From contig NZ_QVNU01000008.1 of assembly GCF_003545715.1 (NCBI RefSeq), positions 1-64,000 on the forward strand: DNA of 64,000 bases, given 5' to 3'. The position numbers and the translations under genes were made by a program. This document shows, one piece after another, positions 4,602 through 43,656 of the stretch (position 1 is the first letter of the stretch; each line of letters starts with the position of its first letter). Source of the stretch: Taibaiella koreensis. GTDB lineage: Bacteria; Bacteroidota; Bacteroidia; Chitinophagales; Chitinophagaceae. Under the pieces are notes generated by a model. That model saw nothing but the letters and a program-made list of their open reading frames with translations. It was not told the origin of the DNA and ran no database searches.

Positions 4602-4820
4602 ACGATGTCAATCGTTTAAGTGTTTGGTGGGTGTAAATTTGAAGAAAATTTTCCAGATCAAATTTGAATTTGTCTGTTACTCTTTTAAAATCGCAGGATT
4701 TTAAAGATAATTTAGGACTACACTTGTTTTTCTTTGTAGAATGCGCAAGTTGCCGTATTCCTCAATAAATAAGGCATTTACATAATTGTATTTTAGTTGT
4801 TACTAAAATAATATATTTTT
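4602..4820. other. AT-rich spacer between PPTase and NRPS genes
   Basis: This 219-bp intergenic stretch is AT-rich and has no plausible gene. It probably carries the leader or promoter of the NRPS gene, but I could not pick a convincing TTG/TAnnTTTG pair. Confidence 0.4.
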
Positions 4821-5492
4821 TTACGAGAAAAATGATCCGGGGATTTGCTCCTCCGGAATGAGTTTTATTTTCCGGACAGGCTCATGCATCCTGGTTCCCG
4901 CCAGCGTACAGCAATATTGGGGATCGATATCGATTTCCGTTACAAAAAAAGATTCCTGCCGGAAGGTAACAACACCTTCATCAATCTGTTTAAAGCCGGA
5001 CATATCACTCACGATTCCACTGCCTCTTGCCTTTAAAATGGCCTCTTTTTTGGTCCAGGTTTTGAAGAATGTTAAGTTTTTTTGTGGTGATTTTATGATA
5101 TGCGAAAATTCATCTTCAGAAAGCGTTCCGGTAAAATCATCCAGCTGAACGTTTTCAACTTTTTCGATATCCAAACCGATCTCCTGCTGCTCCGATACGG
5201 CACATACAACATAGTCTCCGGAATGACTGATGTTAAAGGATATACCTGTGCCTTCCAGCAAGGGCTTCCCATATTGCGAATAAGTCAACCGGGAGAGGAT
5301 CTCTTTATCGTTTTCCTGGCCGCCAAGCAGCTGATAAAGCAAAAATTTGCCCAGGAGTGAAGCCTGCCGGTCATGCCAGCGATACAATTTTTCAATCCTG
5401 CGCTTTTCTTCTTCAGCTAATATGGAATACAAAAAAAATATCGCTTGCTCGGACAATAAATGAATGTTCTCTGTGTAGCCTAATTGGATCAT
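4821..5492 (-). CDS. 4'-phosphopantetheinyl transferase, Sfp type
   Basis: The 223-residue protein has the two hallmark motifs of Sfp-type PPTases: GLDIEKV (Mg-binding Asp and Glu, about residue 125) and WTKKEAILKARG (about residues 165-177). It also has the earlier FNISHSGDYVV stretch seen in this family. The enzyme transfers phosphopantetheine from coenzyme A to the Ser of carrier domains. It lies 219 bp upstream of the NRPS on the same strand, so the NRPS carriers are the likely substrates. Length is normal for the family. The ATG at 5492 is followed by an N-terminus of typical spacing. Confidence 0.93.
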   Translation of the reverse strand: MIQLGYTENIHLLSEQAIFFLYSILAEEEKRRIEKLYRWHDRQASLLGKFLLYQLLGGQENDKEILSRLTYSQYGKPLLEGTGISFNISHSGDYVVCAVSEQQEIGLDIEKVENVQLDDFTGTLSEDEFSHIIKSPQKNLTFFKTWTKKEAILKARGSGIVSDMSGFKQIDEGVVTFRQESFFVTEIDIDPQYCCTLAGTRMHEPVRKIKLIPEEQIPGSFFS

Positions 5493-5910
5493 GCGTTAGT
5501 TATGTGTTACTGTGGTTTGGTTGTTTACGGTATTATTGAGCTAAAACCGGCGCAAAATGAATCACGCATTTTACTAATGGCAATAGATAGTCATAAGACA
5601 TCGGCTTAATTTTAGATCAGTTTGCATTACTTTAGCTGACTATGCCAGTATAGGAAACAAAACATCCGCCGGTCCTTGACTTATTGGTGATGAACAGACA
5701 GAGAAAGTGAACGGCAATATTACTAACACTTGTGAAAATACAAATTACTAAAGGATGCGTTCTTGATTAAGAAATTTCACAAACCCCGGTGAACAGGTGT
5801 CGTAAAATTGTGTTGATCGGGTTGTAAAACTTATTTGCGTAATTCATCGCCTCCCCTGGCTCAATTGCTTGATAGGCCGTTCGGCATATCATTCGCTAAA
5901 AACATATCCG
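5493..5910. other. Intergenic region with a decayed repeat end
   Basis: No gene is supported here. Positions 5637-5682 resemble the left end of the 129-bp inverted-repeat element found at 13036 and 25949 (a GACTAT...TATAGGAAAC start followed by CCGGTCCTTGA) but are diverged. The rest is AT-rich and probably holds divergent promoters for the PPTase and the gene at 5911. Confidence 0.4.
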
Positions 5911-6528
5911 ATGTTACAAAACCGTGTCACACCATTTGGGGAAATCATCAAAACAGCAGCCCGTGGCAGTTGGATGGGAAACCGTGGTCAGCTCCACAAG
6001 GATGATCAACAGATCGTTCGCCCGTTTAAGCTCAAGGCCTGGTTAACCTGCTTGCTGGCGTTTAACGGGCGGCAACGGCAGGTAATGGCCCCGCATCGGT
6101 ATACAGAGCTTTTCTTCCGGGATGAGGCTACCGCCTTTGCCTCCGGCCACCGGCCCTGTTTTGAATGTCGCCGGCAGGATTATCAGCGTTTCAAAGCTCT
6201 CTGGCTGAAGGGTAATCCCGGGTATGGCTTTATGGATAATGTCTCCATTCAGAAGATAGATGAGATTCTGCACCGGGAAAGGATTGATCCAAACGGGAAA
6301 AAGATCGTTTATGAAGATGTACTGGATACCTTGCCCGACGGATGTTTTATTGCCATTGACCAGGACGCATATGTGCTGTATCAGGGTGTCCTGCATTTAT
6401 GGACACCTGAAGGTTACACGAAAAATATCATTCTCCCTCCCGGAAAAACGGTAACAGTACTCACGCCCAGGTCTATTGTAAATACCTTCATAGCGGGATA
6501 CTTGCCCGAAGTGGGTCCTTTTATATAG
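5911..6528 (+). CDS. Conserved hypothetical protein (GHRPCFECRR motif)
   Basis: About 205 residues if translation starts at the internal ATG at 5911 (MLQNRVTPFGEI); an upstream ATG at 5869 adds 14 residues. I recognise the sequence style as a widespread conserved hypothetical family beginning with NRVTPFGEI and carrying APHRYTELFFRDEATA and GHRPCFECRR. The two Cys spaced C-x-x-C could bind a metal, but that is inference. I know no function. It has no signal peptide or membrane segment. It is flanked by intergenic DNA on both sides, so it is probably monocistronic. Confidence 0.75.
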   Translation: MLQNRVTPFGEIIKTAARGSWMGNRGQLHKDDQQIVRPFKLKAWLTCLLAFNGRQRQVMAPHRYTELFFRDEATAFASGHRPCFECRRQDYQRFKALWLKGNPGYGFMDNVSIQKIDEILHRERIDPNGKKIVYEDVLDTLPDGCFIAIDQDAYVLYQGVLHLWTPEGYTKNIILPPGKTVTVLTPRSIVNTFIAGYLPEVGPFI

Positions 6529-6646
6529 TGATCACGAGGTCGTAAATGAGGCATTGGGAAAAGCGGTATCGTCTACGTGCACCACTGCGCATCGTATATC
6601 GTAAAATATGCCCTGTTGCTATGGCTGAAGAAAAATCCTGCGACGA

Positions 6647-7147
6647 TTAGTGCTGCTTAAAAGCAAAAAGTGTTTTGTCAATCAAACTTTCTATTTCGAG
6701 GAAAGAATTGGCCAGATTTAAGATCTGAAATTGAAAATGATCGATCTCGATACCAAGCCAGCCTTGCATTAAGGTAAGCGGACCAAAGGATACACTAACG
6801 TTTGGCCATTGTTCTTGATATTCTTTAAAGCCTGCCCGGAAGACAGCCGCAAACTTGTTGCTTTGTATCGTATAGCCCGGTAATTTTCTAAGCTTTAAGG
6901 CATGGACATTATAAAGCAATTTGTTCTTATCAATTGACTCCTGATTGACCCAAATGGAGAAAAAAATCCGGGATTCTGCTGTCAATGGGTCTTGATGTGG
7001 AGACGACCAAGACCGCTTATAGAGTTTCAAAAAAACAGAATTTAAAACAACACCGACCGCCACATCAATATTTTTTTTGATCAGGACTTTTTCATCAAGC
7101 TGACGGGATGCATCCTGGAATATTTCGAGGTAACTGTTGAAATCCAT
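6647..7147 (-). CDS. Hypothetical protein
   Basis: A 166-residue soluble protein with no motif I recognise. It is rich in aromatic and charged residues and has a helical-looking C-terminus (LNLANSFLEIESLIDKTLFAF). The gene is more AT-rich than the NRPS side. It faces the gene at 5911 convergently and sits immediately outside the duplicated tRNA-flank segment at 7257. The ATG at 7147 is the first possible start in frame. It could be an accessory gene brought in with the neighbouring island. Confidence 0.6.
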   Translation of the reverse strand: MDFNSYLEIFQDASRQLDEKVLIKKNIDVAVGVVLNSVFLKLYKRSWSSPHQDPLTAESRIFFSIWVNQESIDKNKLLYNVHALKLRKLPGYTIQSNKFAAVFRAGFKEYQEQWPNVSVSFGPLTLMQGWLGIEIDHFQFQILNLANSFLEIESLIDKTLFAFKQH

Positions 7148-7256
7148 AGCGGCGCTTTTTTCTATTTCATTTGTTGTTATCGCAAAGGTCTACCTTCTTT
7201 ACTTCATTAAGGTCATTTTTTCTTTAACCGATTTATGTTTACGTTTTAAGACAAAT

Positions 7257-7363
7257 GGTGAGGCGAATAGCCGCTCGAACCTAGAACCCTACCTGCACAA
7301 GCCATAGGGCTAATCGAGGACACCAAAACAAATCAATCTGGTACCCTTTTCGCTTGTTTTGCT
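7257..7363. repeat. Left copy of duplicated segment A
   Basis: The sequence starting GGTGAGGCGAATAG and passing through CGCTCGAACCTAGAACCCT to the TTTTCGCTTGTT block is closely matched by 14091-14211 in the same orientation. The copies differ by scattered substitutions and small indels. Together with segment B (7893-7954 and 14250-14311) it forms direct repeats that bracket the accessory region. Confidence 0.75.
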
Positions 7364-7870
7364 CCTACGGAGCAATTATAGGGTCGTTTGTTTTTCTGCT
7401 ACAGACATTTTGCTCCCACGGAGCAATTAAAGGGTTATTTGTTTATTTGTCTACAGACATTTTGCTCCTACGGAGCAATTGCAGGGTTGTTTGTTCTTTG
7501 GGTACAGACATTTTGCTCCTACGGAGCAATTATAGGGTCGTTTGTTTTTCTGCTACAGACATTTTGCTCCTACGGAGCAATTAAGAAGGTTATTTGTTTA
7601 TTTGTCTACAGACATTTTGCTCCTACGGAGCAATTGCAGGGTTGTTTTTTCAGCAATAAACCTTAGTTCCCTGCAAACAATCTCACTAATAGCGGTATGG
7701 TTGCGTCCCAATAGCATTCGGGTGCCGCCATGCCACCCTTATATGCAGGCACGACACACTTCTGGTGTGGCCGACACTATGCCAGGCCTCAATGTTCCTT
7801 ATAGAACACTTTTTAGCGTGATCCGAAACGTTTACATAATCGTTCCTTCCCCCTAACTTTTTCGCTTGTT
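7347..7870. other. Insert carrying array 1, bounded by a 12-bp direct repeat
   Basis: TTTTCGCTTGTT occurs at 7347-7358 and again at 7859-7870. In the right-hand copy of the duplicated region this 12-mer occurs once (about 14195-14206) and is followed directly by the counterpart of the 7871-onward sequence. The roughly 500 bp holding the array therefore look inserted, with the 12-mer as a target duplication or recombination junction. Apart from the array (to 7631), 7632-7858 holds no gene I can support. Confidence 0.55.
7361..7631. repeat. Tandem array of six palindromic units, cluster 1
   Basis: Six copies of the palindrome GCTCCTACGGAGC begin at 7361, 7412, 7464, 7515, 7566 and 7619, a period of 51-53 bp. 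The second copy has a T-to-C change in the loop. Most units are preceded by CTACAGACATTTT and followed by AATTGCAGGGTTG or a close variant. Each palindrome could form a short hairpin with a TAC loop. Reading frames through the array (repeating LLLRSN) are by-products. A second cluster lies at 43657-43875. Confidence 0.92.
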
Positions 7871-7892
7871 CCATTTTTTGCAGGAAACGTCC

Positions 7893-7954
7893 GTTTTGAA
7901 TTGTTTTAAGCGTTTTTAAACAAAAAAGCCACTCTAGTGAGTGGCTTTCAGTGA
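7893..7954. repeat. Left copy of duplicated segment B (tRNA-Lys 3' flank)
   Basis: This 62-bp stretch matches 14250-14311 at 59 of 62 positions by eye, in the same orientation. It contains the hairpin AAGCCACTC/GAGTGGCTT. At 14 kb the same hairpin is the terminator immediately 3' of tRNA-Lys, and the repeat there ends on the last three bases of the tRNA. No tRNA is attached to the left copy. Confidence 0.85.
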
Positions 7955-8034
7955 ACCCTCTTGGTGCAAAAGTCGAACTTTTTGATTGCTGATTTGAATA
8001 GAATGTCGGCACTCATAAAATAAAATTTCTCATG

Positions 8035-8295
8035 TCAAACCAAGAGGAAAGATTGCTTTTTAGAATCTAGCCAATCACGAATTGGCTTGGTGTATGCATT
8101 CCAAAAAGAAAGTGTTGATAAGAGGCTTACGATTTCTTTGTAATCATTTTTTGAATATCCTAATCGCTCTATGATATCATCTATGAAATGATGTGAGTTA
8201 GGAACCGCATTAATATCTTGCGCAGCTTCAATAATTTCATTCCAAGCTCCATTTTGAGTAGGTTGCAGAACTATAATAATAGAGTGAAAGTAGCT
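8035..8295 (-). pseudogene. C-terminal fragment of an unknown protein
   Basis: Reading leftwards, about 85 open codons end at TGA (8035-8037). The peptide has protein-like composition (IIEAAQDINAVPNSHHFIDD, then YSKNDYKEIVSLLSTLSFWN). An in-frame TAG lies just upstream and there is no start codon, so only a 3' remnant remains. I do not recognise the family. It sits between the left flank repeat and the first RiPP precursor. Confidence 0.4.
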
Positions 8296-8309
8296 CTCTA
8301 CCTATCGTT

Positions 8310-8396
8310 GCAACCTTGTTGTGTATCTTGGAGACCACCTATCTGGATGATATGAAAAATGCGATTGAGGATGAGATTGATGAGAAATTTCGATAG
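8310..8396 (+). pseudogene. Short C-terminal coding remnant
   Basis: On the plus strand an open frame reads about VATLLCILETTYLDDMKNAI, then EDEIDEKFR, and stops at TAG near 8394. It has no start codon. The acidic amphipathic end looks like a protein tail, but it is too short to assign. It may be another piece of a gene destroyed during island formation. Confidence 0.25.
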
Positions 8397-8460
8397 TTAG
8401 CCAACATAAAATCACCTTGTATACAAATATTCACTGCATTTTTTTTGCTGTGACTCGAAC

Positions 8461-8468
8461 TATGTTTG
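8461..8468 (+). promoter_or_regulatory. Candidate Bacteroidota -7 element
   Basis: TATGTTTG matches the Bacteroidota -7 consensus TAnnTTTG and lies 24 bp before the ATG of the first RiPP precursor. I do not see a well-spaced -33 TTG, so this is only a candidate. Confidence 0.35.
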
Positions 8469-8492
8469 TAGTTCATAAAAAAATGAAGTCAT

Positions 8493-8729
8493 ATGAAAAA
8501 GAGGCATTTGAGTCTTGATCGTAAGCTTGTCTTGCAGAAAAAATGGATTGGCAACTTAATGGCAGCAGAAACAGGAGCCGTTTTAGGCGGAGCTACCTTT
8601 GCGGGAGATACCAGTCCTTGCGGCCCATGTCCTGGCCCAACCATTAATTGCCCGACTGTACGTAATTGCCCTCCGAACACAAGCCCTACAGTAGGTAACC
8701 CATGTTGTTCCATCAGCGGGGAACCATAA
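8493..8729 (+). CDS. Putative class I lanthipeptide precursor A
   Basis: A 78-residue peptide with a Lys-rich, Leu-patterned leader (MKKRHLSLDRKLVL) followed by ETGAVLGG, which resembles a double-glycine cleavage site near residues 32-33. The remaining 45 or so residues are rich in Cys (6), Thr, Ser, Pro and Gly and include TINCPTVRNC. Leader-GG-core architecture with this MKK...LSL start is typical of Bacteroidota class I lanthipeptide precursors, where Ser/Thr are dehydrated and joined to Cys. No LanB or LanC is in the window, so modification would require enzymes encoded elsewhere. A strong terminator follows at 8749. The core shares INCPTV-x-x-C with precursor B. Confidence 0.75.
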   Translation: MKKRHLSLDRKLVLQKKWIGNLMAAETGAVLGGATFAGDTSPCGPCPGPTINCPTVRNCPPNTSPTVGNPCCSISGEP

Positions 8730-8748
8730 CTACAAAATAATTGCATCC

Positions 8749-8780
8749 AAAAAAGCCACCGTTGCAACGGCGGCTTTTTT
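8749..8780 (+). terminator. Rho-independent terminator after precursor A
   Basis: AAAAAGCCACCGTTGC pairs with GCAACGGCGGCTTTTT through a long GC-rich stem with one wobble pair, followed by a T-run. It lies about 20 bp after the precursor A stop. The flanking A-run could make it work in both directions. Confidence 0.85.
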
Positions 8781-8929
8781 GTTTTTGATCGCTGTCTTTA
8801 ACCCAATTTTTACCGCTACTACGTCAACAGAATAGTCTATAATTTTGGACATCGCCGTTATGATTGCACCCATAAACAATTTCTTGGTTTATAAAACCAT
8901 ATATAAAATTTGCTACGTACACCAAGGTA

Positions 8930-9289
8930 AGATTGTTAAAGCAAGAAATTGATTACTAAGTGAGGATTTAGACGCTTCAGACTATAGATTAATTAAGAGT
9001 GAAAGTGAGCAGAAGATTAATAAGCTCGAAGTTAAACTGACTGCTTCAATTAGTGCTCAAAATGATGTTTCGTCACTTTGGGATAAAGCGGTTTTTACCA
9101 TCTCAAAGCTTGATGTTTTATATGAAGAGGGGAACCGTCGAGCAAAAAAGGAAAATAATAAGTTCGATGTTTCCTGAAAATCTCATTTATGACGGATACA
9201 AACATCGAACCCCAAGAGTGAACGAAGCAATTAAAATTATGTCGCTGATAAGAACTTTTATAAAGCAAACGTACAAAGTATCTATTTGA
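8930..9289 (+). pseudogene. Serine-recombinase C-terminal remnant, frameshifted
   Basis: One frame reads LSEDLDASDYRLIKSESEQK, then INKLEVKL and ISKLDVLYEEGN, before losing the pattern. From about 9130 another frame continues EQKRKIISSMFPENLIYDGY, then KHRTPRVNEAIKIM. Together these match the C-terminal coiled-coil and tail typical of large serine recombinases in Bacteroidota mobile elements. A frameshift near 9130-9145 and further damage upstream (about 8950) separate the pieces. The catalytic resolvase domain is absent. This points to past site-specific integration in the region. Confidence 0.6.
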
Positions 9290-9505
9290 ATTGCAAATTC
9301 GGTTTACGGCCCGGCCGGTCTTGTAGCTTCGGGTACCACTACAGCCTCATCTGTTGCGACAGGGCAATAATCGCAACTATAGGTTGTCATCAAACAACTA
9401 AAAATAGCGCCAATACAACTATAAGGATGCAGGCTTTTGCTGATTCCGGCTTGAGGGCACAATATCTTTGCTGTATCGAAAGAGTCAAATAAAATATAGC
9501 AGTTT

Positions 9506-10504
9506 ATGGATATTAAAATGTTAGGTGGTAAGATCACCAAAGCCCGAAAAGAAAAGAACATGTCTCAGTCGCAACTTGCCCAACTGCTCTTTATCAGTCC
9601 ACAGGCGGTTGGCAAATGGGAACGTGGAGAATCCATCCCGGATATCGTTACCATCAATCAGCTAGCTGAAATTTTTGATGTTGACCTCAATTATTTCTCA
9701 GAAAATTTCCGGTCCGCAGCGTCTGAAACCTCGTCCAAGGGCATAGATAACAGTTACGACGATACAGAGCAGGCCGAACAGGAGGCCACGCGCCCGCCCG
9801 GCGAACGGGAGATGCTGATCAACTTCAGTGGGAGTAGTCTTTCAGAGAGTGATTTCGTGGGTGTTACTGCACGCAAACGAAAATTTAACGGAAGCGCGTT
9901 ACAAGGCTCCGACTTTGCGGGCGCAGATCTAACCGGTAGTTCATTTATCGGCAGCGATATACGCGGAGCAAATTTTGGTGGAACAAATCTGACGAGCAGT
10001 TCATTTATGGGGAGTGATATACGCGACGCCAATTTTGACGGAACGAACCTAACAGACTGTACCCTTTCTGCCAATGACCTTACAGAGGCGTGCTTCAACA
10101 AGACCATTCTCTTACGGACCGTATTCAGTACCTCAGGATTGACCGGGGCTAGATTTGTCGATACAGAACTGATCGACGTCAAACTGACCAAGACCGATCT
10201 TACAAAAACGGTCTTTGAAAACTGCACTTTCAAGGGAGTTGACTTCAAGTACTCCGATATGCGGGGCGTATGTCTTGACGGACAGGCCTTTATTGGCGTC
10301 AAGTTCGATAAGACGGCGCTGAATGAAGCCACGTTCAATGGTTCAACACTCCGCAATGTATCCTTTCGTCCAACATTTGCCCTGACCAATAAATACTACC
10401 GGGCCATTAAAACCATTTGTTTTGACGGCGCCATGATGGATAAACTGACCTACGCCGAACTCAAGGGCATGGGCGCCGAATTGTCAAAAGTTACCTTTCT
10501 ATAA
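9506..10504 (+). CDS. XRE-type HTH regulator fused to pentapeptide-repeat domain
   Basis: A 332-residue protein. Residues about 5-65 form a Cro/CI-type helix-turn-helix (KARKEKNMSQSQLAQLLFIS and the WERGESIPD turn). After a Gln/Glu-rich linker, residues about 105-310 are pentapeptide repeats of the A/S-D/N-L/F pattern (SDFAGADLTGSSFIGSDIRG). Such repeats fold as a right-handed beta-helix; some, such as McbG, AlbG and Qnr, mimic DNA and protect gyrase. The C-terminal part (TNKYYRAIKTICFDGAMMDK) recalls HTH-pentapeptide proteins I associate with Firmicutes, suggesting transfer. It lies 13 bp upstream of the ABC exporter genes, so it probably regulates or complements them. An in-frame ATG at 9518 is an alternative start. 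Confidence 0.9.
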   Translation: MDIKMLGGKITKARKEKNMSQSQLAQLLFISPQAVGKWERGESIPDIVTINQLAEIFDVDLNYFSENFRSAASETSSKGIDNSYDDTEQAEQEATRPPGEREMLINFSGSSLSESDFVGVTARKRKFNGSALQGSDFAGADLTGSSFIGSDIRGANFGGTNLTSSSFMGSDIRDANFDGTNLTDCTLSANDLTEACFNKTILLRTVFSTSGLTGARFVDTELIDVKLTKTDLTKTVFENCTFKGVDFKYSDMRGVCLDGQAFIGVKFDKTALNEATFNGSTLRNVSFRPTFALTNKYYRAIKTICFDGAMMDKLTYAELKGMGAELSKVTFL

Positions 10505-10517
10505 ACAACAAAAGCAT

Positions 10518-11273
10518 ATGCAAAACGCAATTCAAGTGAAAGGACTTCAAAAGTCCTATAAGGATCTTCATGTCCTGAAAGGTGTGGACCTCAAGGTGGA
10601 AAAGGGTAGCATATTTGCCTTGCTTGGCTCCAATGGTTCGGGTAAGACAACGATTGTTAGGATCCTCACCACTCTGCTTAAACAAGATAGTGGAACGGCC
10701 ACTGTGAACGGTTTTGACGTACTGTCAAAACCCGGGAATGTGCGGCAATCGATCAGCCTCACCGGGCAGTTTGCCGCCGTAGATGAGATCCTGACCGGAA
10801 GGGAAAACCTGATTATGATCGCCCGGCTGTGGCACCTTAAAAACCCCAGCCAGGTCGCAGACCATCTGTTGAATCGCTTTGGTTTGACCGATGCTGCCAA
10901 ACGTAAGGCTTCTACTTACTCGGGTGGAATGCGCCGCCGGCTTGATATTGCCATGAGCCTTGTCGGGTCTTCACCGCTTATTTTCCTCGATGAGCCGACT
11001 ACCGGTCTTGACCCCGAGGCGCGCATCGAAGTTTGGAAGATCATTAAGGAGCTTGCGGCAGGTGGCACGACAGTATTCCTGACCACTCAGTATCTCGAGG
11101 AAGCCGAGCAACTCGCCGACAGAATTGCTATTCTTCACGAAGGCAGGATCATTGTCAGCGGCACCCTCGCGGAACTGAAGAGTCTTTTCCCACCTGCAAC
11201 CGTTGAGTATATAGAAAAGCAGCCAACACTAGAGGAAATATTTCTTACAATCATCAACAAAAAAAAGCAATAA
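10518..11273 (+). CDS. ABC transporter ATP-binding protein, DrrA-like
   Basis: A 251-residue ATPase with Walker A (GSNGSGKTT, about residue 38), signature YSGGMRRRLDIAMSL, Walker B PLIFLDEPTTGLDP and a switch region LTTQYLEEAEQLADR. The CcmA/DrrA-like signature and the absence of a fused permease place it with ABC-2 type drug exporters. It starts 13 bp after the pentapeptide regulator stops and is followed after 4 bp by its permease, so the three genes probably form one operon. Substrate is unknown; candidate substrates are the neighbouring RiPPs or an external drug. Family assignment is secure, substrate is inference. Confidence 0.93.
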   Translation: MQNAIQVKGLQKSYKDLHVLKGVDLKVEKGSIFALLGSNGSGKTTIVRILTTLLKQDSGTATVNGFDVLSKPGNVRQSISLTGQFAAVDEILTGRENLIMIARLWHLKNPSQVADHLLNRFGLTDAAKRKASTYSGGMRRRLDIAMSLVGSSPLIFLDEPTTGLDPEARIEVWKIIKELAAGGTTVFLTTQYLEEAEQLADRIAILHEGRIIVSGTLAELKSLFPPATVEYIEKQPTLEEIFLTIINKKKQ

Positions 11274-11277
11274 TTAA

Positions 11278-12045
11278 ATGGAAACGACAAACAACTATTT
11301 CTTTAGAGATATGAGCGTCATGCTCGGACGTTCGATGCGCCACGTGTTTCGCAGTATGGATACCATCATTACGGTTACCATCATGCCCATAGCCATGATG
11401 CTGCTATTCGTCTACGTGTTGGGCGGAGCTATTCAGACCGGCACAGATAACTATGTAAATTACCTATTGCCCGGCATACTGCTCATAGCGATTGCCAACA
11501 GTGTGGGCTATGTATCCTATCGCCTGTTCCTGGATAAGCAAAGGGGTATATTTGAACGTTTTAATTCTATGCCCATTGCCCGTTCGACCGCCCTGTGGGG
11601 GCATGTGCTCACCTCGATGTTATCCAATATGATTTCACTTTTTGTGATCATCCTGGTAGCCCTTATTATGGGCTTTCGCTCACCCGCCGGAATACTCTCC
11701 TGGCTGGCTGTGGCTGGTATACTATCACTGTTTACACTGACCTTGACATGGATCGCAGCAATTGCCGGATTGTCAGCCAAGTCGGTGGATGGTGCGGCAG
11801 CGATTGCTTACCCGCTTCACTTCCTGCCCTTAATCAGTTCTGCTTTTGTGCCAACCAAGACCATGTCTGCAGGCGTTCGTGCCTTTGCCGAAAACCAGCC
11901 AGTTACTTCGATAGTGGAATCCATTCGCGCATTATTATCAAATCATCCGATAGGTAATTCGCTATGGATCGCGCTTGCCTGGTGTATCGGAATTATAATC
12001 GTGGCCCATATTCTGGCGATGAGGGCTTACAGAAAAAGGGGATAA
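11278..12045 (+). CDS. ABC-2 type transporter permease, DrrB-like
   Basis: A 255-residue integral membrane protein with about six hydrophobic segments. It has the DrrB-type central region (YRLFLDKQRGIFERFNSMPI, then ARSTALWGHVL). It would form the membrane channel for the ATPase encoded 4 bp upstream. Length and topology are normal for ABC-2 exporters of the daunorubicin-resistance type. Tight spacing indicates co-transcription and probably coupled translation. Confidence 0.92.
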   Translation: METTNNYFFRDMSVMLGRSMRHVFRSMDTIITVTIMPIAMMLLFVYVLGGAIQTGTDNYVNYLLPGILLIAIANSVGYVSYRLFLDKQRGIFERFNSMPIARSTALWGHVLTSMLSNMISLFVIILVALIMGFRSPAGILSWLAVAGILSLFTLTLTWIAAIAGLSAKSVDGAAAIAYPLHFLPLISSAFVPTKTMSAGVRAFAENQPVTSIVESIRALLSNHPIGNSLWIALAWCIGIIIVAHILAMRAYRKRG

Positions 12046-12268
12046 ATTGCACTGGGAAGTAACAGCGAATTCGCTACCCGCAGCAATGATACTCCTTGTT
12101 GAATAGGAGGGCATTTAATCGTACCATAGCTCCAAAATACACAGAAATCCCCCGCCAACGGTTTTAAGCGTGTCTTACATGATTCGCACTCGTAAAAGTA
12201 TAGACAGGAATCAGTGGACATTTTTTCTTCTTTCCGGAAGCCACATTGCGGACAGGTAAGGAGTGAAT
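12027..12268 (-). pseudogene. Degenerate GDCCVxC-type small protein
   Basis: The frame LLTCPQCGFRKEEKMSTDSC continues LYFYECESCKTRLKPLAG, then DFCVFWSYGTIKCPPIQ. It matches the layout of the small GDCCVxC-domain (seleno)protein family: CPxCG, then CxxC, then GDCCVxCSYGxxxCPPIQ. Two signature cysteines are replaced (GDFCVFW), and the conserved N-terminal CPQC part lies upstream of the only ATG (12221), preceded by an in-frame TGA and no start. It also runs past the usual CPPIQ end and overlaps the permease 3' end. I read it as a decayed gene. A shortened 64-residue product from 12221 is possible. Confidence 0.55.
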
Positions 12269-12394
12269 TTATTCAGAAAAATAAGGCAGGTAGTTAATCT
12301 GATTTTTAACCGTTTTTTGAAAAATAATTTGGTAAATGTTTGCAAAAAGAAGTACGTGTTATTTGTAATTTAGAAATATTAAAGCACGTATTTT

Positions 12395-12658
12395 ATGGAA
12401 AGAGAAATGAGTATTCCGGAATACCGTGTAAGGTTACCGGACATTGAAATTGCGAGATTGTTGGGGATCAGTATTACTGATTATGTGAATCTAAGTCATA
12501 GACCTCTAGAAGCTTTTACAGATACGCAAGGGAACGTAATAGAATTTTATATTCATGTTAGTAGTAACAATGACCCAAGGCTGTTAAGTAAACTGAACCT
12601 CGATAAGAGTAATTTCGTAAGATTTAAGCCGGAAGAAGTTTATTCGCGGTATGTTTGA
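12395..12658 (+). CDS. Small hypothetical protein
   Basis: An 87-residue soluble protein, charged, with no signal peptide or membrane segment. The sequence RLPDIEIARLLGISITDYVN looks helical and could be HTH-like, but I do not recognise a family. It is followed by a strong hairpin terminator at 12681, supporting a real transcription unit. It lies between the exporter operon and precursor B, convergent with the latter. The ATG at 12395 is followed after four codons by a second ATG (MSIPEYR) that could equally be used. Confidence 0.55.
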   Translation: MEREMSIPEYRVRLPDIEIARLLGISITDYVNLSHRPLEAFTDTQGNVIEFYIHVSSNNDPRLLSKLNLDKSNFVRFKPEEVYSRYV

Positions 12659-12680
12659 CTTAAATCAAAATTATTTAAAA

Positions 12681-12714
12681 ACAAAGACTATCTGATCAGG
12701 TAGTCTTTGTTTTT
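12681..12714. terminator. Bidirectional terminator
   Basis: ACAAAGACTA (12681-12690) pairs perfectly with TAGTCTTTGT (12701-12710), with a partly palindromic CTGATCAG loop. It has a T-run to the right and an A-run to the left. It lies between the convergent genes at 12395-12658 (+) and 12734-12961 (-) and would serve both. Confidence 0.85.
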
Positions 12715-12733
12715 GTGAAATACCGATTCAAGA

Positions 12734-12961
12734 TTAAGAACAATCACAAATGGTACGGTAAGAATCGCAAATCGCGTTGTGGCATTGAGTAATAATAAAC
12801 GACGCACATTTAGTTACTGTCGGACAATTAATTACTGTTGGAACGATACAAGGACCAGTAGCACCACCTACTATTGCCGCCCCCTGATTTTCGTTAAGTT
12901 TTGCAATTGTTTCTTTACTGAGGAACAGCTTTTTGCTGAGTTGCATTTTTTTCTTTTTCAT
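12734..12961 (-). CDS. Putative class I lanthipeptide precursor B
   Basis: A 75-residue peptide. The leader MKKKKMQLSKKLFLSKETIA followed by KLNENQ is a near-textbook Bacteroidota class I lanthipeptide leader, ending in AAIVGG near residue 33. The core has seven Cys and many Thr/Ser (VINCPTVTKC, ASFIITQC, SYRTICDCS). The INCPTV-x-x-C block also appears in precursor A. No lan biosynthesis genes are nearby; the closest relevant genes are the DrrAB-like exporter and pentapeptide protein upstream on the opposite strand. It would be transcribed leftwards into the terminator at 12681. ATG at 12961. Confidence 0.85.
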   Translation of the reverse strand: MKKKKMQLSKKLFLSKETIAKLNENQGAAIVGGATGPCIVPTVINCPTVTKCASFIITQCHNAICDSYRTICDCS

Positions 12962-13035
12962 GCTGAATGAGTTTTGAGTAAAATTACATGGAAATAAAAA
13001 GCAATGTATCCGTAGAAAGACTGATTTATTTTAAG

Positions 13036-13164
13036 TGACTATCCGGATATAGGAAACAAAGCCGGTCCTTGAGCTCGTCGAAAGGACAAAGATGATGCTT
13101 CGACAAGCTCAGCAGCCGTTAATTGGAGGCGAATTGTATCCTGTTTCCTATATCCGGATAGTCA
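13036..13164. mobile_element. 129-bp MITE-like inverted-repeat element, copy 1
   Basis: Perfect 22-bp terminal inverted repeats (TGACTATCCGGATATAGG plus AAAC at 13036-13057, and its complement at 13143-13164) enclose an internal imperfect hairpin built from GAGCTCGTCGAAAGG and CTTCGACAAGCTC. A second element of exactly the same length lies at 25949-26077 in the opposite orientation. There is no coding capacity. This looks like a non-autonomous transposable or palindromic repeat. No clear target-site duplication was seen. Confidence 0.85.
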
Positions 13165-13351
13165 GATTATTTTAATCAAATAGTGTCCCTAAAGCCTCCC
13201 GTTTCTTAGTGGAAAAATCAACCTGTCTCATGCCTATCACTAGTATTAGGGATTTTTTGGTTCTTGAATATCAATACTTTTACGATACTGAAAGCGTCCG
13301 ATGTACATGGACCAAAATCAGTATTTCATCGTAAACTAAAAACGTAAAAAC

Positions 13352-13585
13352 ATGAAAAAGAAAATCGTAGGCTCGAAATTATCATTGAAGAAAAAAATTA
13401 TTGCTCCGTTATCTATAGAAGGGGGTAATCAAATTGTTGGTGGAGGGCCAAGTCAGGTGAGTTGTGGCGGGACTTGTAATAAAATGTGTCCGACACCTCC
13501 CACTAGAGTTATAACCGAATGCGGCGGATGCCCAGTAACAATTCAAGTTGGATGCACTACCGTGCCCGGTACTGAAGCGTGCTAG
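13352..13585 (+). CDS. Putative class I lanthipeptide precursor C
   Basis: A 77-residue peptide with a basic leader (MKKKIVGSKLSLKKKIIAPL) and a GG motif (NQIVGGG, about residues 27-32). The Cys-rich core has seven Cys and many Thr/Gly/Pro (VSCGGTCNKMCPTPP, ECGGCPVTIQVGC). The KLSLKKK element and IVGG site parallel precursors A and B, but the core differs. A terminator at 13621 follows closely. As with the other two, no modification enzyme is encoded in the window. Assignment rests on leader architecture and composition, and the peptide could belong to another GG-leader RiPP class. Confidence 0.75.
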   Translation: MKKKIVGSKLSLKKKIIAPLSIEGGNQIVGGGPSQVSCGGTCNKMCPTPPTRVITECGGCPVTIQVGCTTVPGTEAC

Positions 13586-13618
13586 CCATCTTATAAGTAC
13601 CGAGTTGATTATGTTGTA

Positions 13619-13646
13619 CAAAGCCACTCCTTTAGAGTGGCTTTTC
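13619..13646 (+). terminator. Terminator after precursor C
   Basis: AAGCCACTC and GAGTGGCTT pair around a CTTTA loop, followed by TTTTC, 34 bp after the precursor C stop. The stem is nearly the same as those at 7925 and 14283, so this hairpin may be part of the repeated tRNA-flank family. Confidence 0.75.
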
Positions 13647-13713
13647 TAATTCAAATACATTTGACCCTTTACTTTGGAGAAATTTGTATTTTGTAGTACC
13701 AAACACTCTATCT

Positions 13714-14110
13714 ATGAAGATAAAAGAAGCAGTCATTATAATTGAACGGTAAATTAACAAGCTTCATAATTCTGATGCGCTAAAAAATGGTCTTTGGAAA
13801 TTACAAACTCTATCAAGCCTAAAGACCATTTTCGGAGAAAATTCTGATGAATGTAACCGTTTTTCAAATTTTCGTATCGACGATGAATCTTTATAACTTA
13901 TTGTAAAAGATGTAGATGAAAGAGAAGCCAGAGACAAATTAACTATTGAAGCTTTCTTGAAAAACTGTATTGAGACAGTAACGGATAAAGGTGTTTATAA
14001 ACCAATAACAGGTTCTAATTGGCTTAGTAGATTGGCCGAAAAATCACTTACAGGAGAGCTTTTCATTAACCTTCATAACACAATTTTTAGGTGGACGAAT
14101 GATCGCTCGA
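13714..14110 (+). pseudogene. Hypothetical gene interrupted by two TAA codons
   Basis: From ATG 13714 the frame reads MKIKEAVIIIER, stop (TAA 13750-13752), INKLHNSDALKNGLWKLQ, through FRIDDESL, stop (TAA 13894-13896), then LIVKDVDEREARDKL, FLKNCIETVTDKGVYKP and ITGSNWLSRLAEKSLTGEL. Coding-like composition continues in one frame across both stops, and each stop is one base from CAA (Gln). I read this as a decayed gene of unknown function. Its 3' end runs into the duplicated segment A at 14091. Confidence 0.55.
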
Positions 14111-14211
14111 ACCTAAAACCCTACCTACACAAACCTTCGGGTCAATCGAGGGTACCAAAATAAACAAATAAGTTTGGTACCCTTATGGGTAGCCTTTTCG
14201 CTTGTTTTGCT
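14091..14211. repeat. Right copy of duplicated segment A
   Basis: The counterpart of 7257-7363 in direct orientation (GGACGAATGATCGCTCGAAC, then CTAAAACCCTACCT, ending in CCTTTTCGCTTGTTTTGCT). Together with segment B next to tRNA-Lys it bounds the accessory region. Confidence 0.75.
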
Positions 14212-14249
14212 TTGTATCTGATTGTTATGACTTTTTTTAAAAAACGCTG

Positions 14250-14311
14250 ATTTTGAATTATTTTAAGCGTTTTTAAACAAAAAAGCCACTCTATTGAGTG
14301 GCTTTCAGTGA
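14250..14311. repeat. Right copy of duplicated segment B
   Basis: This 62-bp sequence is identical to 7893-7954 at 59 positions. It runs up to and includes the last three bases of the tRNA-Lys gene, consistent with an attachment-type duplication at a tRNA 3' end. Confidence 0.85.
14279..14303 (-). terminator. Terminator of tRNA-Lys
   Basis: GCCACTC and GAGTGGC form a stem with a TATT loop. Read leftwards the stem is followed by a long T-run (complement of the A-run near 14277-14284). It lies a few bases after the tRNA 3' end. Confidence 0.75.
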
Positions 14312-14381
14312 TTCCGCTGGGACTCGAACCCAGGGCCCATACATTAAAAGTGTATTGCTCTACCAACTGAGCTACGAAATC
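14309..14381 (-). tRNA. tRNA-Lys (anticodon UUU)
   Basis: A 73-nt cloverleaf can be drawn on the minus strand. The acceptor GATTTCG pairs with CGGAATC (one G-T) and the discriminator is A. The D arm is GCTC-AGTTGGTA-GAGC, the anticodon arm ATACA-CTTTTAA-TGTAT giving anticodon TTT, and the T arm CTGGG-TTCGAGT-CCCAG. The CCA end is not encoded. Its 3' flank is duplicated near 7.9 kb, making it a likely integration site. Confidence 0.95.
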
Positions 14382-14524
14382 AACCGCTACTCGTTCGTTG
14401 AACGGAGTGCAAAAGTAAAGGCTCTTTTATTATTTTCCAAATCCACGTATAGAAAATCCGGAAAAAAATTTAGTCTTATTTTCGCCATCCATTTCATTCA
14501 CCTTTAGAAAACCGCATCCCGCTT

Positions 14525-15166
14525 ATGCTCCAGGTCGCTTCCTTCACCTTCAATCCTTTCCAGGAAAATTCTTATGTGTTGTTCAATGAGCAGAAAGATT
14601 GCTGGATCATCGATCCCGGCATGTACGGCGCCGACGAAGAACGCGTCCTGTTCACTTTTATTGAGCAACATGGCCTTCAGCCAAAGCAAATCCTCAATAC
14701 CCATGCCCATATCGATCATGTGCTGGGCATCGATGCCTTAAAGAGCAAATACAATATCCCCTTCGGTATGCATACGCTCGAACAGCCCGTGCTGGCCAAT
14801 GTGAGGGGTTCGGCCACTATGTTCGGCTTCCACCTGCCGGTACTTCCCGTTGCTGACTTTTTTATCTCTGAGCAAGAAAAGATAAACCTGGGCGAAGATG
14901 AGCTCGAGATACGCCTGGCGCCGGGACACTCGCCCGGAAGCATCGTTTTCTACAATGCCGAAGGTGGCTGGGTTATTGGCGGCGATGTACTGTTCAACGG
15001 CAGTGTAGGCCGCTCCGATCTGCCCGGCGGCAACCACGAGACTTTAATGAAAAGCATCAAAGAACAGCTTTATACTTTACCCGACGATACGATCGTGTAT
15101 AGTGGCCATGGTCCCGAAACCAGCATTGGCAAGGAAAAAGCAAGCAATCCTTTTGTAAGGGGTTAA
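14525..15166 (+). CDS. MBL-fold metallohydrolase (glyoxalase II-like)
   Basis: A 213-residue metallo-beta-lactamase-fold enzyme with the metal-binding motif THAHIDHVLG (HxHxDH, about residue 59), the second His in GHSPGSIVFY, and Asp in IGGDVLF. It lacks the long C-terminal domain of classical GloB, so it fits the short YcbL-like group, which hydrolyses thioesters such as S-lactoylglutathione. The precise substrate is unknown. The stop overlaps by 4 bp the stop of the convergent symporter gene. Confidence 0.92.
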   Translation: MLQVASFTFNPFQENSYVLFNEQKDCWIIDPGMYGADEERVLFTFIEQHGLQPKQILNTHAHIDHVLGIDALKSKYNIPFGMHTLEQPVLANVRGSATMFGFHLPVLPVADFFISEQEKINLGEDELEIRLAPGHSPGSIVFYNAEGGWVIGGDVLFNGSVGRSDLPGGNHETLMKSIKEQLYTLPDDTIVYSGHGPETSIGKEKASNPFVRG

Positions 15167-16881
15167 GAGATTCCCGTAGCTTTATTTTTGCGGTCCAGCA
15201 AAGCCTGCAACGGCAACGACAGCAACATCACCAGCACTGCGCCAATGACGTTAAGCCATAAGAATGCGACCAGCTTGAAGATATAGATGAGCAATACCAG
15301 TATTTCGGCGCCGAGCGAAGCATAGAATACGGCCTGTCCCTTTACCCGCTTGAGAAAGAAAGCTGTGAGGAAAATGCCCAGTATCGCTCCGTAGAAAAGG
15401 CTGCCCAGTTCGTTTACGGCTTCGATCAGCGAACCCATGCGTGTGGCAAACATTGCCACGGCGATGCTGAACACACCCCAGATCAGCGTATACAGCCGCC
15501 CGTAGCGTACCTGGTCTTTACCGTTCAGCGGTTCCTTACAGAATACCTGGTGGAAATCGACCAGGGTAGAGGAGGCCAGCGAATTAATGGCGGCCGAAAT
15601 AGAGCCCCAGCTGGCCAGTAAGATCACGGCAAATAACAGCCCCACCATTCCGGCCGGCAGGTAGTGGCGTACAAAATGCAGGAAGATATAATTGCTGTCG
15701 TTCTCCGGCTCAGCGATGGCCGCCTGATGCCTTTTGATCAGCTTGCTCAGGGTATCTCTTTGCTGCTCGATCCGGTGTTGACCCTCTTTGAGCCGTTGCA
15801 GCAGTTGCTGCTCTTCCCCTGTCTTTGCCGGTGAGGACGATTGCCGCAGCGCGATCAGCTTCAGCGCCGTTTGCTGGTTGCTTTTTGCAGTTTGCTGATT
15901 TTCGATATACAAAGGCTGGTAAGCTTCGGGGGCAATGGTTGCTACTTTCTGCGCAGCAGATTCATTAAAGAACAGTGGCGCTTTATAGATCGTATAGAAC
16001 GAAAAAAGCAAGGCGCCGGTCAGCAGGATAAGGAACTGCATCGGGATCTTGACCATACCATTGAGCAGCAGACCCAGCCGGCTTTCACGCATGTCTTTGG
16101 CCGTAAGGTAGCGTCCTACCTGGCTCTGATCTGTACCAAAATAAGAAAGGGCAAGAAAGAAGCCGCCTATCAGGCCCGACCACAGGTTATACTTGTCGTT
16201 CAGGTTGAAGGTCGTGGTGATCACATTCAGCTTTCCCGATTTACCGGCCAGGTATAAGGCATCGCTGAAGCGTATATTGTCGGGCAGGGAAGCCACAACC
16301 AGGTAGCCGGCCACAGCCATCGATAGCAGGATGATGCCGAACTGTATCTTTTGCGTGTGGGCTATGGCCTTGGCGCCGCCGGTATAGGTATAGATGATGA
16401 GCAAACCGCCCACCAGCAAATTGGTGAGATAAATATTCCAATGAAAGATCGTGGATAAAATGATAGCAGGCGCATAGACGCTGATACCGGTAGATACGCC
16501 CCTGGAAAAGAGGAACAGCACACCAGTAAACAGGCGGGTCTGCCGGTTAAAGCGTTTATCCAGGTATTCGTAAGCTGTAAATACATTGAGTCGTTGGAAT
16601 ATGGGCACGAAAACCATACTGATGACGATCATAGCCAGGGGAAGACCGAAATAATACTGCACAAAGCGCATACCATCGGTATAGGCCTGGCCCGGGCCCG
16701 ATAAGAAGGTGATGGCGCTGGCCTGTGTGGCCATAATACCCAGGAGCACCACATGCCAGGGCATTTGCCGCCCGGCCCGCAGGTAAGTATCGGAACTGCT
16801 GTGCCCGCGGCCCTTCCATACCCCGAATACAATGATCAGCAACAAGGTGCCGAGCATGATAACCCAGTCGAGACTACTCAT
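15163..16881 (-). CDS. Sodium:solute symporter family protein
   Basis: A long polytopic membrane protein with about 13-14 hydrophobic segments and SSS-family features (QASAITFLSGPGQAYTDGMR, then SYFGTDQSQVGRYL). Between late membrane segments is an unusual hydrophilic, Gln/Lys/Glu-rich insert of about 80 residues (AKSNQQTALKLIALRQ to HQAAIAEPEN) predicted by eye to be coiled coil. I chose ATG 16881 (MSSLDWVIMLGTLLL), which places the first membrane helix in the normal position; a start at 16983 would add 34 residues. The substrate cannot be assigned. Confidence 0.88.
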   Translation of the reverse strand: MSSLDWVIMLGTLLLIIVFGVWKGRGHSSSDTYLRAGRQMPWHVVLLGIMATQASAITFLSGPGQAYTDGMRFVQYYFGLPLAMIVISMVFVPIFQRLNVFTAYEYLDKRFNRQTRLFTGVLFLFSRGVSTGISVYAPAIILSTIFHWNIYLTNLLVGGLLIIYTYTGGAKAIAHTQKIQFGIILLSMAVAGYLVVASLPDNIRFSDALYLAGKSGKLNVITTTFNLNDKYNLWSGLIGGFFLALSYFGTDQSQVGRYLTAKDMRESRLGLLLNGMVKIPMQFLILLTGALLFSFYTIYKAPLFFNESAAQKVATIAPEAYQPLYIENQQTAKSNQQTALKLIALRQSSSPAKTGEEQQLLQRLKEGQHRIEQQRDTLSKLIKRHQAAIAEPENDSNYIFLHFVRHYLPAGMVGLLFAVILLASWGSISAAINSLASSTLVDFHQVFCKEPLNGKDQVRYGRLYTLIWGVFSIAVAMFATRMGSLIEAVNELGSLFYGAILGIFLTAFFLKRVKGQAVFYASLGAEILVLLIYIFKLVAFLWLNVIGAVLVMLLSLPLQALLDRKNKATGIS

Positions 16882-17048
16882 GACCAGGCCAGTGTAAACC
16901 AGGTGAACAATAAGATCAGCACCAGCAGCCACAACAGCACGGCCCAATACCAGCGTCGCCAGTAAGATTGACTCATCCTGCAAGATTAAAGCAAATCCCC
17001 TTGAATTCCAATTCTACGATGTTGCCGTTTTGTAAAAGCGGTCCCGGC

Positions 17049-17819
17049 TTAGTGATGATGATGCTCTTCTTCATCCAGCCCCGGGTGCAGCTTTGCGGCT
17101 TCGGGCAATAGTGCGGTCGGCACTTTTGGAAAAGTATGATGCAAATGATGGAAAGCAAAAGAAGAGACAATAGGGGTCCAGATACGGGCCATGCGCACGC
17201 CTGCCATACGGGCCGGATGACGTGCGGCCATCTTGTGCGGGATATAGGATGCCCATAGCGGCATGAGGCAACTGAGCACAAATGCCACGGCCCAATATAC
17301 CAGACCAGCCAGCGAGCCTGTAAATACATATAACAGGATAAACCCCGCCAGCAGCAACAAGGTGGCTGCCGATTCCTGTAGCTGTATCCTGCGGGTATGC
17401 GGCGCCATTTTCAGCGAGGCGATCCGCAATGCGAAAATATGATAAGGTCCGTTGAGGAATACCTGCTTCAGGGTCCAGCGGGCCGGCGCACCTTCAGGAT
17501 CGTTATCGCTGAGACATTGACCGTGATGCCTCAGGTGTGTGATCTTGAGGGCATGGCCGCTTTTGAGCAGTAGTAGGCCGCTTAGGCTGAGCAAAAGATC
17601 ATTGGTGCCTTTGGAGACGCCGAGCGCATTGTGTATGGTGTCGTGCATCTGCACAAAGCCCGCCAGGCAGGTTACCAGGGCTACCGGGATAGCCAGCCAC
17701 CAGATCCCGAACGCTGCGCACAGAATATAGATGCCCAGCAATAGCCAGGGCCTCATGATCTCGATCCGCCTTTGCAGCGGACTCAGCTGGAATGCAGGTG
17801 ATGATTTACCCATGATCAT
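17049..17819 (-). CDS. Fatty acid desaturase family protein
   Basis: A 256-residue membrane protein with the three histidine boxes of membrane di-iron desaturases/hydroxylases: HDTIHNALG (about residue 58), HLRHHGQ (about residue 95) and HHLHHTFPKV (about residue 223). Four or more hydrophobic stretches separate them. It would act on lipids or carotenoids at the inner membrane; the substrate is unknown. The protein ends in EEEHHHH. It is the last gene of a minus-strand run beginning with the ArsR gene. An alternative ATG lies two codons downstream. Confidence 0.88.
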   Translation of the reverse strand: MIMGKSSPAFQLSPLQRRIEIMRPWLLLGIYILCAAFGIWWLAIPVALVTCLAGFVQMHDTIHNALGVSKGTNDLLLSLSGLLLLKSGHALKITHLRHHGQCLSDNDPEGAPARWTLKQVFLNGPYHIFALRIASLKMAPHTRRIQLQESAATLLLLAGFILLYVFTGSLAGLVYWAVAFVLSCLMPLWASYIPHKMAARHPARMAGVRMARIWTPIVSSFAFHHLHHTFPKVPTALLPEAAKLHPGLDEEEHHHH

Positions 17820-17837
17820 TCAAAGTTACACATTCTG

Positions 17838-18512
17838 TTATTGCCGCACCTCTTCCCTTACAGGCCGGGCGTCGGCAGGAATACCATTTACCAAAGGCTT
17901 GAATTCGGCTTTAAAATACCCTTTATAGCCAAAGAGCGTACCAAATGTCTTGTTACGGACGGTCACTTGTATATTGAAGCGGTCCTGTATTTCATCGTAA
18001 GATTCCCGAACCTCCGCATTGCCCGTGAACAATCCGGGATAACGGAATGCGATGCGCCCTTCATAGAACCGCTGATTGCCCGAGCGTATGGTGATACTAT
18101 TGTCTTCATTTACCCTTATGTCTATATCCACAGCCAGGTGCTGCCTGCTGCCCAGGTAATCGACGATACGGTGCTCGGCCTCATTATAGATCATAGTGGC
18201 ATCAAAGCGTCGTACTTTTTTTCCGAAGTGGAATTTACGGTTCCAACTCACCGTGTCGCGGCCGAAGGTATCTCTATAGCCATAGTTCTCGATCGTGAAG
18301 GGTATATTGGCGCCGGTTTCGGGAAACATGATATTGCGGAAAGTGCCCAGGTAAAGAAAAGGCAGCGTATACCAGCCGGCATTACGCACATGTTCCATAA
18401 CGCCTGTGCCCAGCATATACACAGGCTGCTCGCTGCTGACACCGAAACGTTGCTGCATCATCGGATGCAGGCGGTCAAAATCTTTGCCCAGGTATTGCTT
18501 ATAGATCGACAT
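17838..18512 (-). CDS. DUF4166 domain protein
   Basis: About 224 residues from ATG 18512 (MSIYKQYLGKDFDRLHPMMQ). It has the DUF4166 pattern including ENYGYRDTFGRDTVSWNR and FHFGKKVRRFDATM. Function is unknown; in other bacteria this domain is linked to saccharopine-dehydrogenase-like or DoxX proteins. It overlaps the 3' end of the upstream SRPBCC/DoxX gene by 14 bp, implying translational coupling. A start at 18551 would lengthen it by 13 residues inside the upstream gene and is less likely. Confidence 0.8.
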   Translation of the reverse strand: MSIYKQYLGKDFDRLHPMMQQRFGVSSEQPVYMLGTGVMEHVRNAGWYTLPFLYLGTFRNIMFPETGANIPFTIENYGYRDTFGRDTVSWNRKFHFGKKVRRFDATMIYNEAEHRIVDYLGSRQHLAVDIDIRVNEDNSITIRSGNQRFYEGRIAFRYPGLFTGNAEVRESYDEIQDRFNIQVTVRNKTFGTLFGYKGYFKAEFKPLVNGIPADARPVREEVRQ

Positions 18513-43642: not shown

Positions 43643-43656
43643 ACCACAGACATTTT

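Follow-up and report, generated by a model that had tools for sequence, protein, structure and literature searches.

Three short genes near the start of a contig of Taibaiella koreensis (Bacteroidota; Chitinophagaceae) are probably members of a dispersed family of about 128 genes for class I lanthipeptide precursors, whose products would be modified in trans by enzymes encoded elsewhere in the genome. The stretch analysed, here called the window, comprises bases 1-64,000 of a 190 kb contig (C22) in a genome of 5.94 Mb (G000). A preliminary description of this DNA reported three Cys-rich peptides with a Gly-Gly (GG) leader and suggested that they form an orphan multi-precursor set served by remote enzymes. 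We found all three ATG-started open reading frames (ORFs) where it had placed them, the middle one on the minus strand, a detail that the description had left out:

8493-8729, plus strand: precursor 1, 78 aa; leader 8493-8591 ending ...VLGG; core 8592-8726 with 6 Cys; NF038153 score 22.7 bits
12734-12961, minus strand: precursor 2, 75 aa; leader 12863-12961 ending ...IVGG; core 12737-12862 with 7 Cys; NF038153 score 48.5 bits
13352-13585, plus strand: precursor 3, 77 aa; leader 13352-13444 ending ...IVGG; core 13445-13582 with 7 Cys; NF038153 score 29 bits

All three peptides exceed the cut-off (22 bits) of the curated leader model NF038153 (lant_leader_L1a), as their assignment to the class I type predicts, and precursor 2 is the second-best row genome-wide. 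The strict LxLxKx5L motif is readable in each leader. The GG site, anticipated near residue 30, ends at residues 33, 33 and 31, and the cores, described as holding six or seven Cys plus many Thr/Ser, contain 10, 9 and 10 Ser/Thr beside the Cys listed above. For precursor 3 our script placed the leader end at residues 24-25, a GG that precedes the end of the curated leader match at residue 31; the Cys and Ser/Thr counts are the same either way. Searches against Pfam gave no family above its own cut-off for any of the three, and none of 14 control genomes had an NF038153 match above 22 bits. The description also held that the window lacks LanB, LanC, radical SAM and peptidase-transporter genes. 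Profiles for LanB, LanC and C39 indeed matched nothing on the whole of contig C22, so the trio is not clustered with such enzymes, and a CxxxCxxC scan of ATG-started window ORFs of at least 150 aa, a pattern check only, flagged no radical SAM protein.

Three members turned out to be far too few. Searching the T. koreensis genome with NF038153 at E up to 10 gave 129 rows. The 22-bit cut-off is reached by 93 of these, in three cases only when neighbours in the frame are included. On reading every row, we recognized 128 short ORFs of one design; the row that was dropped, an HtpX-like frame (C16:549447), is a false match. The 128 precursors are spread over 86 loci on 12 contigs, 64 on each strand, and 58 of the loci hold a single precursor. 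A core of at least 19 residues is present in 127 of the 128 reads, and an ATG start was found in 126 of these 127, one read being without ATG.

We compared leaders and cores in 127 precursors, excluding a stub at C16:155127. The strict motif occurs in 106 leaders, or in 124 when any of L, I, V, M or F is allowed at the three hydrophobic places, and GG is present in 125. On average a core has 47 residues, 6.4 Cys and 9.1 Ser/Thr. As leader end the script took the first GG that falls between residues 19 and 42; in six reads (ends before residue 27, precursor 3 included) this is possibly too early, and the leader and core statistics are slightly blurred by it. Ungapped mean identity between paralogues, calculated for 115 of the 128, is 26% in the leader (last 24 residues) versus 8% in the core (first 25 residues), and 76 of 93 core groups contain only one member from this genome. 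Many dispersed precursors with a common leader and unrelated cores characterize a prochlorosin-type system, and this is the pattern of the 86 loci.

Apart from two-component genes, no neighbour group among the top 14 recurs in more than seven entries, and we rejected the idea that common flanking genes carry all precursors. A common upstream box was rejected as well, no single motif standing out by eye among the enriched words. Upstream regions do show an A-rich stretch at -15 to -9, and TAnnTTTG is found in 27 of 127 of them versus a mean of 10 in plain shuffles; of its 28 sites, 18 start between -40 and -21.

The preliminary description had staked its proposal on synthetase genes somewhere in the genome and on a match to a leader model; on both counts the outcome was positive. 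Profile searches of all contigs located two LanB genes, four LanC genes and a C39 transporter. LanB1 (contig C16) is a protein of 1066 aa with Lant_dehydr_N and Lant_dehydr_C domains, encoded in a cluster with a C39-ABC transporter, an HlyD adaptor and one precursor. LanB1 has a precursor about 1.1 kb away, and some members of the family, such as C16:314758, are clustered with an enzyme. LanB2 (contig C20, L083 8702-13297) likewise carries both dehydratase domains; it is convergent with a pair of LytTR regulator and histidine kinase genes and has no precursor row within 20 kb. The LanC genes are found on C18, C10, C19 and C2. They encode single cyclases of 402-444 aa, not LanM, and each has a precursor no more than 1.6 kb away. 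By sequence, the closest solved relatives of LanB1 are 9g04 ('Thiopeptide-type bacteriocin biosynthesis domain containing protein') and 5ehk (lantibiotic dehydratase), and those of the C10 LanC are 8byk (LanC-like protein) and 2g02 (NisC). The LanB query is 89% identical in T. helva and 56% in T. chishuiensis. The Pedobacter PedA work (Bothwell 2021, Caetano 2020) reportedly describes a cyclase without the usual zinc ligands. This was ruled out for the 11 LanC that we aligned (the four from T. koreensis and seven of the ten congener matches, out of 14 matches in three genomes), all of which keep the zinc and active-site motifs (WC-x-GD, CHG and HG).

Most precursors lie far from this machinery: 118 of the 128 are more than 10 kb from LanB and LanC, and 10 are within 10 kb of LanB1, LanB2 or one of the four LanC. 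A second C39 peptidase match (G000:C10:1226182-1226538, a 164-aa frame) has no precursor within 10 kb. At one LanC locus (L084 7183-7831) and its counterparts in two congeners, G001 (T. chishuiensis; C2:288007-288901) and G002 (C31:53499-53870), precursors adjoin LanC with a LytTR regulator nearby. These LanC-adjacent precursors have the core stretch TTS-F/Y-x-x-CSG-x-x-CC in common in the three species and are likely a dedicated enzyme-substrate set.

From these sequences we infer that the remote enzymes act in trans on the orphans, in the following order. The leader, with its LxLxKx5L motif and Gly-Gly end, would be bound by LanB1, possibly also by LanB2, which would dehydrate Ser and Thr of the core. 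One or more of the four scattered LanC would then form the thioether rings with Cys, after which the product would be cut behind GG and exported by the C39 peptidase-ABC transporter adjoining LanB1. By analogy, the best reading is a distributed class I system akin to the class II prochlorosins. The orphan set with remote enzymes proposed earlier is thus supported by the leader-model matches together with LanB, LanC and C39 elsewhere in the genome.

Precursors and enzymes also occur together across genomes. Among four Taibaiella genomes, precursors, LanB and LanC are jointly present in three and jointly absent in the fourth (G003). The three precursor-bearing genomes have 98, 71 and 60 precursors at E up to 0.01; when all rows up to E 0.3 are kept, G001 has 76 and G002 has 66, one row being a 29-residue stub. 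Across 195 genomes of the family, precursors occur in 11, LanB in 24 and both in 10, meaning that LanB is found in 10 of 11 precursor-bearing versus 14 of 184 precursor-free genomes (Fisher p 1e-9, or 5e-7 without Taibaiella). Seven genomes outside Taibaiella have both LanB and precursors; in six of them the precursors are no more than about 16 kb from a LanB, whereas the three of G067 are unlinked. Precursors were present in 9 of 395 genomes of the phylum, with T. koreensis counted. Precursor counts of rich genomes in the family and phylum searches are at-least values, the best 38 or best 19 candidates having been scored. First-look candidates outside Taibaiella number at most 23 (family) and 55 (phylum) among the genomes listed, versus 134 in T. 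koreensis. Within the samples searched, a dispersed precursor set of such size is seen only in Taibaiella. The richest of the other phylum genomes with precursors, from another family, has at least 19 leader-model matches on one strand in a 3.3-kb array (G393:C1:2257066-2260358), many with equal scores.

We asked how the cores behave between species. Among the fetched congener precursors, reciprocal best hits were obtained for 50 of the 128 in G002 and 28 in G001; pairs with leader identity above 55% and core identity above 50% number 43 and 4, respectively. An earlier dN/dS estimate used the 43 of 50 G002 pairs that pass these identity limits, and the fuller one given here uses all 50 pairs and 45 orphan pairs. 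For the 45 orphan pairs against G002, core pN is 0.144, pS 0.664 and dN/dS 0.098 (bootstrap 0.072-0.128), with 0.147 for leaders; pS is near saturation, and these ratios are therefore rough. In every one of the 50 core pairs pN is lower than pS. Cys is conserved at 94% of core positions, Thr at 82%, Pro at 80% and Ser at 78%, compared with 72% for all core residues, and leader Thr and Ser reach 62% and 64%. Orthologous orphan cores are under purifying selection, Cys above all. At a core dN/dS of about 0.10, each core with an orthologue is being kept, and these cores do not form a freely varying library. Diversifying selection between species was rejected on the same value. The result covers the 50 precursors with a G002 partner, the other 78 falling outside it. 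Five residues ahead of Cys, Ser and Thr are over-represented (z 9.5). They are over-represented at +2 and +3 of Cys too (z 5.9 and 3.7), and spacing alone is therefore no proof of rings.

Beside the rough ratios and the ambiguous spacing, several facts weigh against common modification in trans. In T. koreensis, 35 of the 128 precursors score below the curated cut-off, the excluded stub has only 26 residues, and two cores have only one or two Cys. LanB and LanC are located at separate loci. One family genome rated 100% complete (G141, 130 contigs) has three precursors and no LanB match, and 14 of the 24 LanB-bearing family genomes have no match to the NF038153 leader model.

What the peptides do is a further matter, and here the two-component genes are suggestive. 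Among 576 ORFs near the precursors of T. koreensis (some genes entered twice), the two largest groups are sensor kinases and LytTR regulators. Five of six kinases checked have a LytS-type His_kinase domain, two of these also Reg_prop and Y_Y_Y, and both regulators checked have Response_reg and LytTR. It is possible, though well short of probable, that the orphans form a distributed lanthipeptide signalling repertoire, with a LytS-type sensor kinase and a LytTR regulator encoded nearby responding to each processed peptide. The fetched T. koreensis DNA (1.21 Mb) contains 21 LytTR/LytS loci; for 20 of them the edge-to-edge distance to a precursor is at most 2.5 kb, and the other one adjoins LanB2. 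Measured from gene midpoints, a 5-kb limit takes in 19 of the 20 regulators (p 0.001) and 17 of the 18 kinases (p 0.003), the remaining pair again adjoining LanB2. In twenty random 20-kb tiles plus the window, three regulators and three kinases fell in near DNA (100 kb) and none of either in far DNA (364 kb; p 0.01 each), whereas ABC ATPases, taken as a control, were unbiased (8 near, 4 far, p 0.5). Some precursor/two-component pairs also persist in congeners.

The association, however, depends on distance: by midpoint, p is 0.04 for regulators and 0.002 for kinases at 3.5 kb, rising to 0.32 and 0.04, respectively, when the limit is set at 2 kb; at this limit the three kinases in the tiles plus window count as far. 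The kinase and regulator models were, moreover, built from near genes. LytTR/LytS genes lie within 3 kb of only 27 of the 128 precursors, 12 of 76 in G001 and 8 of 66 in G002 (congener flanks of 3 kb), and for several reciprocal best pairs the system is lacking at the corresponding place in the other genome. The three window peptides themselves have no LytTR/LytS neighbour within 3 kb; they may act as signals or in antagonism. Signalling is the likeliest function for the subset adjoining two-component systems, as a lead rather than a result.

A bolder version is doubtful: that one class I machine underlies a genome-wide signalling code, with more than 100 dispersed shared-leader precursors matured by one LanB-LanC-LanT set into distinct conserved ringed signals, many of them read by their own LytS/LytTR next door, the pairs spreading via AT-rich islands near tRNA genes. 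Precursor flanks in T. koreensis have 48.2% GC versus a background of 50.8%, and all ten tRNA genes in the fetched DNA of this genome are no more than 5 kb from a precursor (p 0.017, with 760 kb of near and 454 kb of far DNA).

A different chemistry for the orphans we consider unlikely. They might be substrates of another RiPP enzyme (ribosomally synthesized and post-translationally modified peptide; radical SAM, MNIO or YcaO), or be exported unmodified and disulfide-rich by the C39 transporter, while LanB and LanC serve adjacent precursors only. The long distance between most precursors and the enzymes would fit, as would the precursors without LanB in G141, and the precursors next to each LanC and LanB1 indicate that dedicated pairs exist. 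Nevertheless, the orphan leaders match a class I leader model and carry a motif linked to class I precursors in the available portion of PMC7268733, precursors are missing together with LanB and LanC from the fourth Taibaiella, and not only Cys but also Thr and Ser are over-conserved in cores and not in leaders, which disulfides alone would not predict. Most improbable is that the orphans are largely decaying duplicates from selfish or neutral proliferation without a product: turnover is high (the reciprocal best hits above), one copy is a stub, flanks are AT-rich and tRNA genes are nearby, but we set this aside because of the selection on orphan cores, and nearly all reads retain a core and an ATG start.

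Modification of the trio in trans, as members of the dispersed family, thus remains our preferred explanation, and the immediate surroundings of the three genes add the following features:

7264-14321, no strand: stretch carrying the three precursors, with direct repeats at its ends and low GC
8759-8773, plus strand: terminator-like hairpin after precursor 1 (consensus scan)
9506-10504, plus strand: HTH-pentapeptide protein (Pfam HTH_3, Pentapeptide)
10518-11273, plus strand: ABC ATPase (Pfam ABC_tran)
11278-12045, plus strand: ABC-2 permease (Pfam ABC2_membrane)
14308-14381, minus strand: tRNA-Lys(ttt) (ARAGORN), its last 14 nt and downstream flank inside the right-hand repeat (D4)

The HTH-pentapeptide gene and the ABC-2 exporter genes sit among the trio, where some other loci have two-component genes; a role of these neighbours (9506-12045) in export or self-protection for the window peptides is possible. 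The precursors had been described as separate units with their own terminators. This stood for precursor 1, and no site was flagged directly after the genes of precursors 2 and 3, in a consensus scan that gave 7 sites overall versus 5.9 in shuffles. Inverted repeats are found at 12659-12732 and, on visual inspection, at 13620-13646. A further one, of 37 nt (13022-13178; 84%, 83-nt centre), lies between precursors 2 and 3.

Direct repeats at 7264-7337/14096-14169 (80%) and 7875-7964/14232-14321 (84%) bound the trio stretch, and GC is 42-44% in the 4-kb bins covering 4000-16000, compared with 51.5 and 52.8% in the flanking bins. With its tRNA-Lys overlap, the sequence of this stretch looks like a possible integration site, although its repeats are only 80-84% alike. 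A second low-GC bin (40.6%) is at 52000-56000 of the window. Tandem arrays at 7357-7647 and 43646-43879 have a 51-52 bp unit around TTTTGCTCCTACGGAGCAATT, and sequences resembling this unit also occur in the G002 precursor loci L212, L217, L218 and L219.

We rejected the idea that the window peptides keep their place in the fetched congener stretches; only precursor 1 has a probable orthologue, in G001, with 70% identity across 40 core residues. Precursor 2 has no convincing orthologue among the fetched G001 and G002 precursors, and the core of precursor 3 has no relative at E<1e-4 among the compared cores of the three genomes. Likewise, DNA likeness between positions 2001-22000 and the fetched G001 and G002 stretches is limited to the precursor 1 gene, the start of the HTH-pentapeptide gene and a short tandem repeat. 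Near another precursor in G002 (L195 ~3936-4253), 318 bp are 72% alike to the start and upstream part of the HTH-pentapeptide gene.

Scattered precursors with one tolerant synthetase are described for prochlorosins and synechococsins, with 29 for ProcM and 79 for SyncM in the part of PMC10783134 available, and the accessible text of PMC11251773 gives prochlorosins conserved leaders, diverse cores and no assigned function. The Taibaiella set shares with these class II systems (ProcM/SyncM) of marine picocyanobacteria, as far as these excerpts describe them, the many scattered precursors, the common leader and the diverse cores. Unlike in prochlorosins, the enzymes are class I LanB and LanC, not LanM, the leaders are of the LxLxKx5L type and the host belongs to Bacteroidota; there are also some 128 precursors, the many Cys per core noted above, orthologous cores conserved between species and two-component neighbours at some loci.

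Closer in class are other Bacteroidota. The LxLxKx5L-GG leader motif was described for a number of class I precursors by Walker et al. (2020; PMC7268733), and the Taibaiella set resembles theirs, in the portion of the paper available: leader motif and GG end agree, the enzymes are of class I, and clusters often include a C39 protease. As given there, the survey covered seven genes on either side of a LanC-like gene, which makes more distant orphans invisible to it; in T. koreensis, 118 of the 128 precursors are more than 10 kb from these enzymes. LahT150, a GG-motif protease, is reported in the accessible part of PMC12328550 to have been used on PedA15.2 of Pedobacter lusitanus NL19. PedA of this strain likewise represents Bacteroidota class I lanthipeptides, and is set beside Taibaiella here by description, not by direct comparison. 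Pinensins are class I lanthipeptides of Chitinophaga pinensis, a host from Chitinophagaceae. Pinensin uses a split LanB, according to the available text of PMC7268733, unlike the two Taibaiella LanB, each with both domains in one protein. Our literature search found nothing on Taibaiella and lanthipeptides and only unrelated titles on lanthipeptides and Chitinophagaceae; subscription literature was thinly covered, and absence from print is not claimed.

Scattered precursor sets with one remote enzyme are known from cyanobacterial class II systems, and here a larger class I counterpart appears in a Bacteroidota genus. Its orthologous pairs, at moderate divergence, allow core-by-core conservation to be tested against a random library, and the two-component neighbours offer a genetic lead to what some of the peptides do. 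If modification in trans is true, mining confined to the vicinity of the enzymes would overlook about nine of every ten precursors in a genome of this kind, and LanB and LanC would be enzymes of very broad substrate tolerance.

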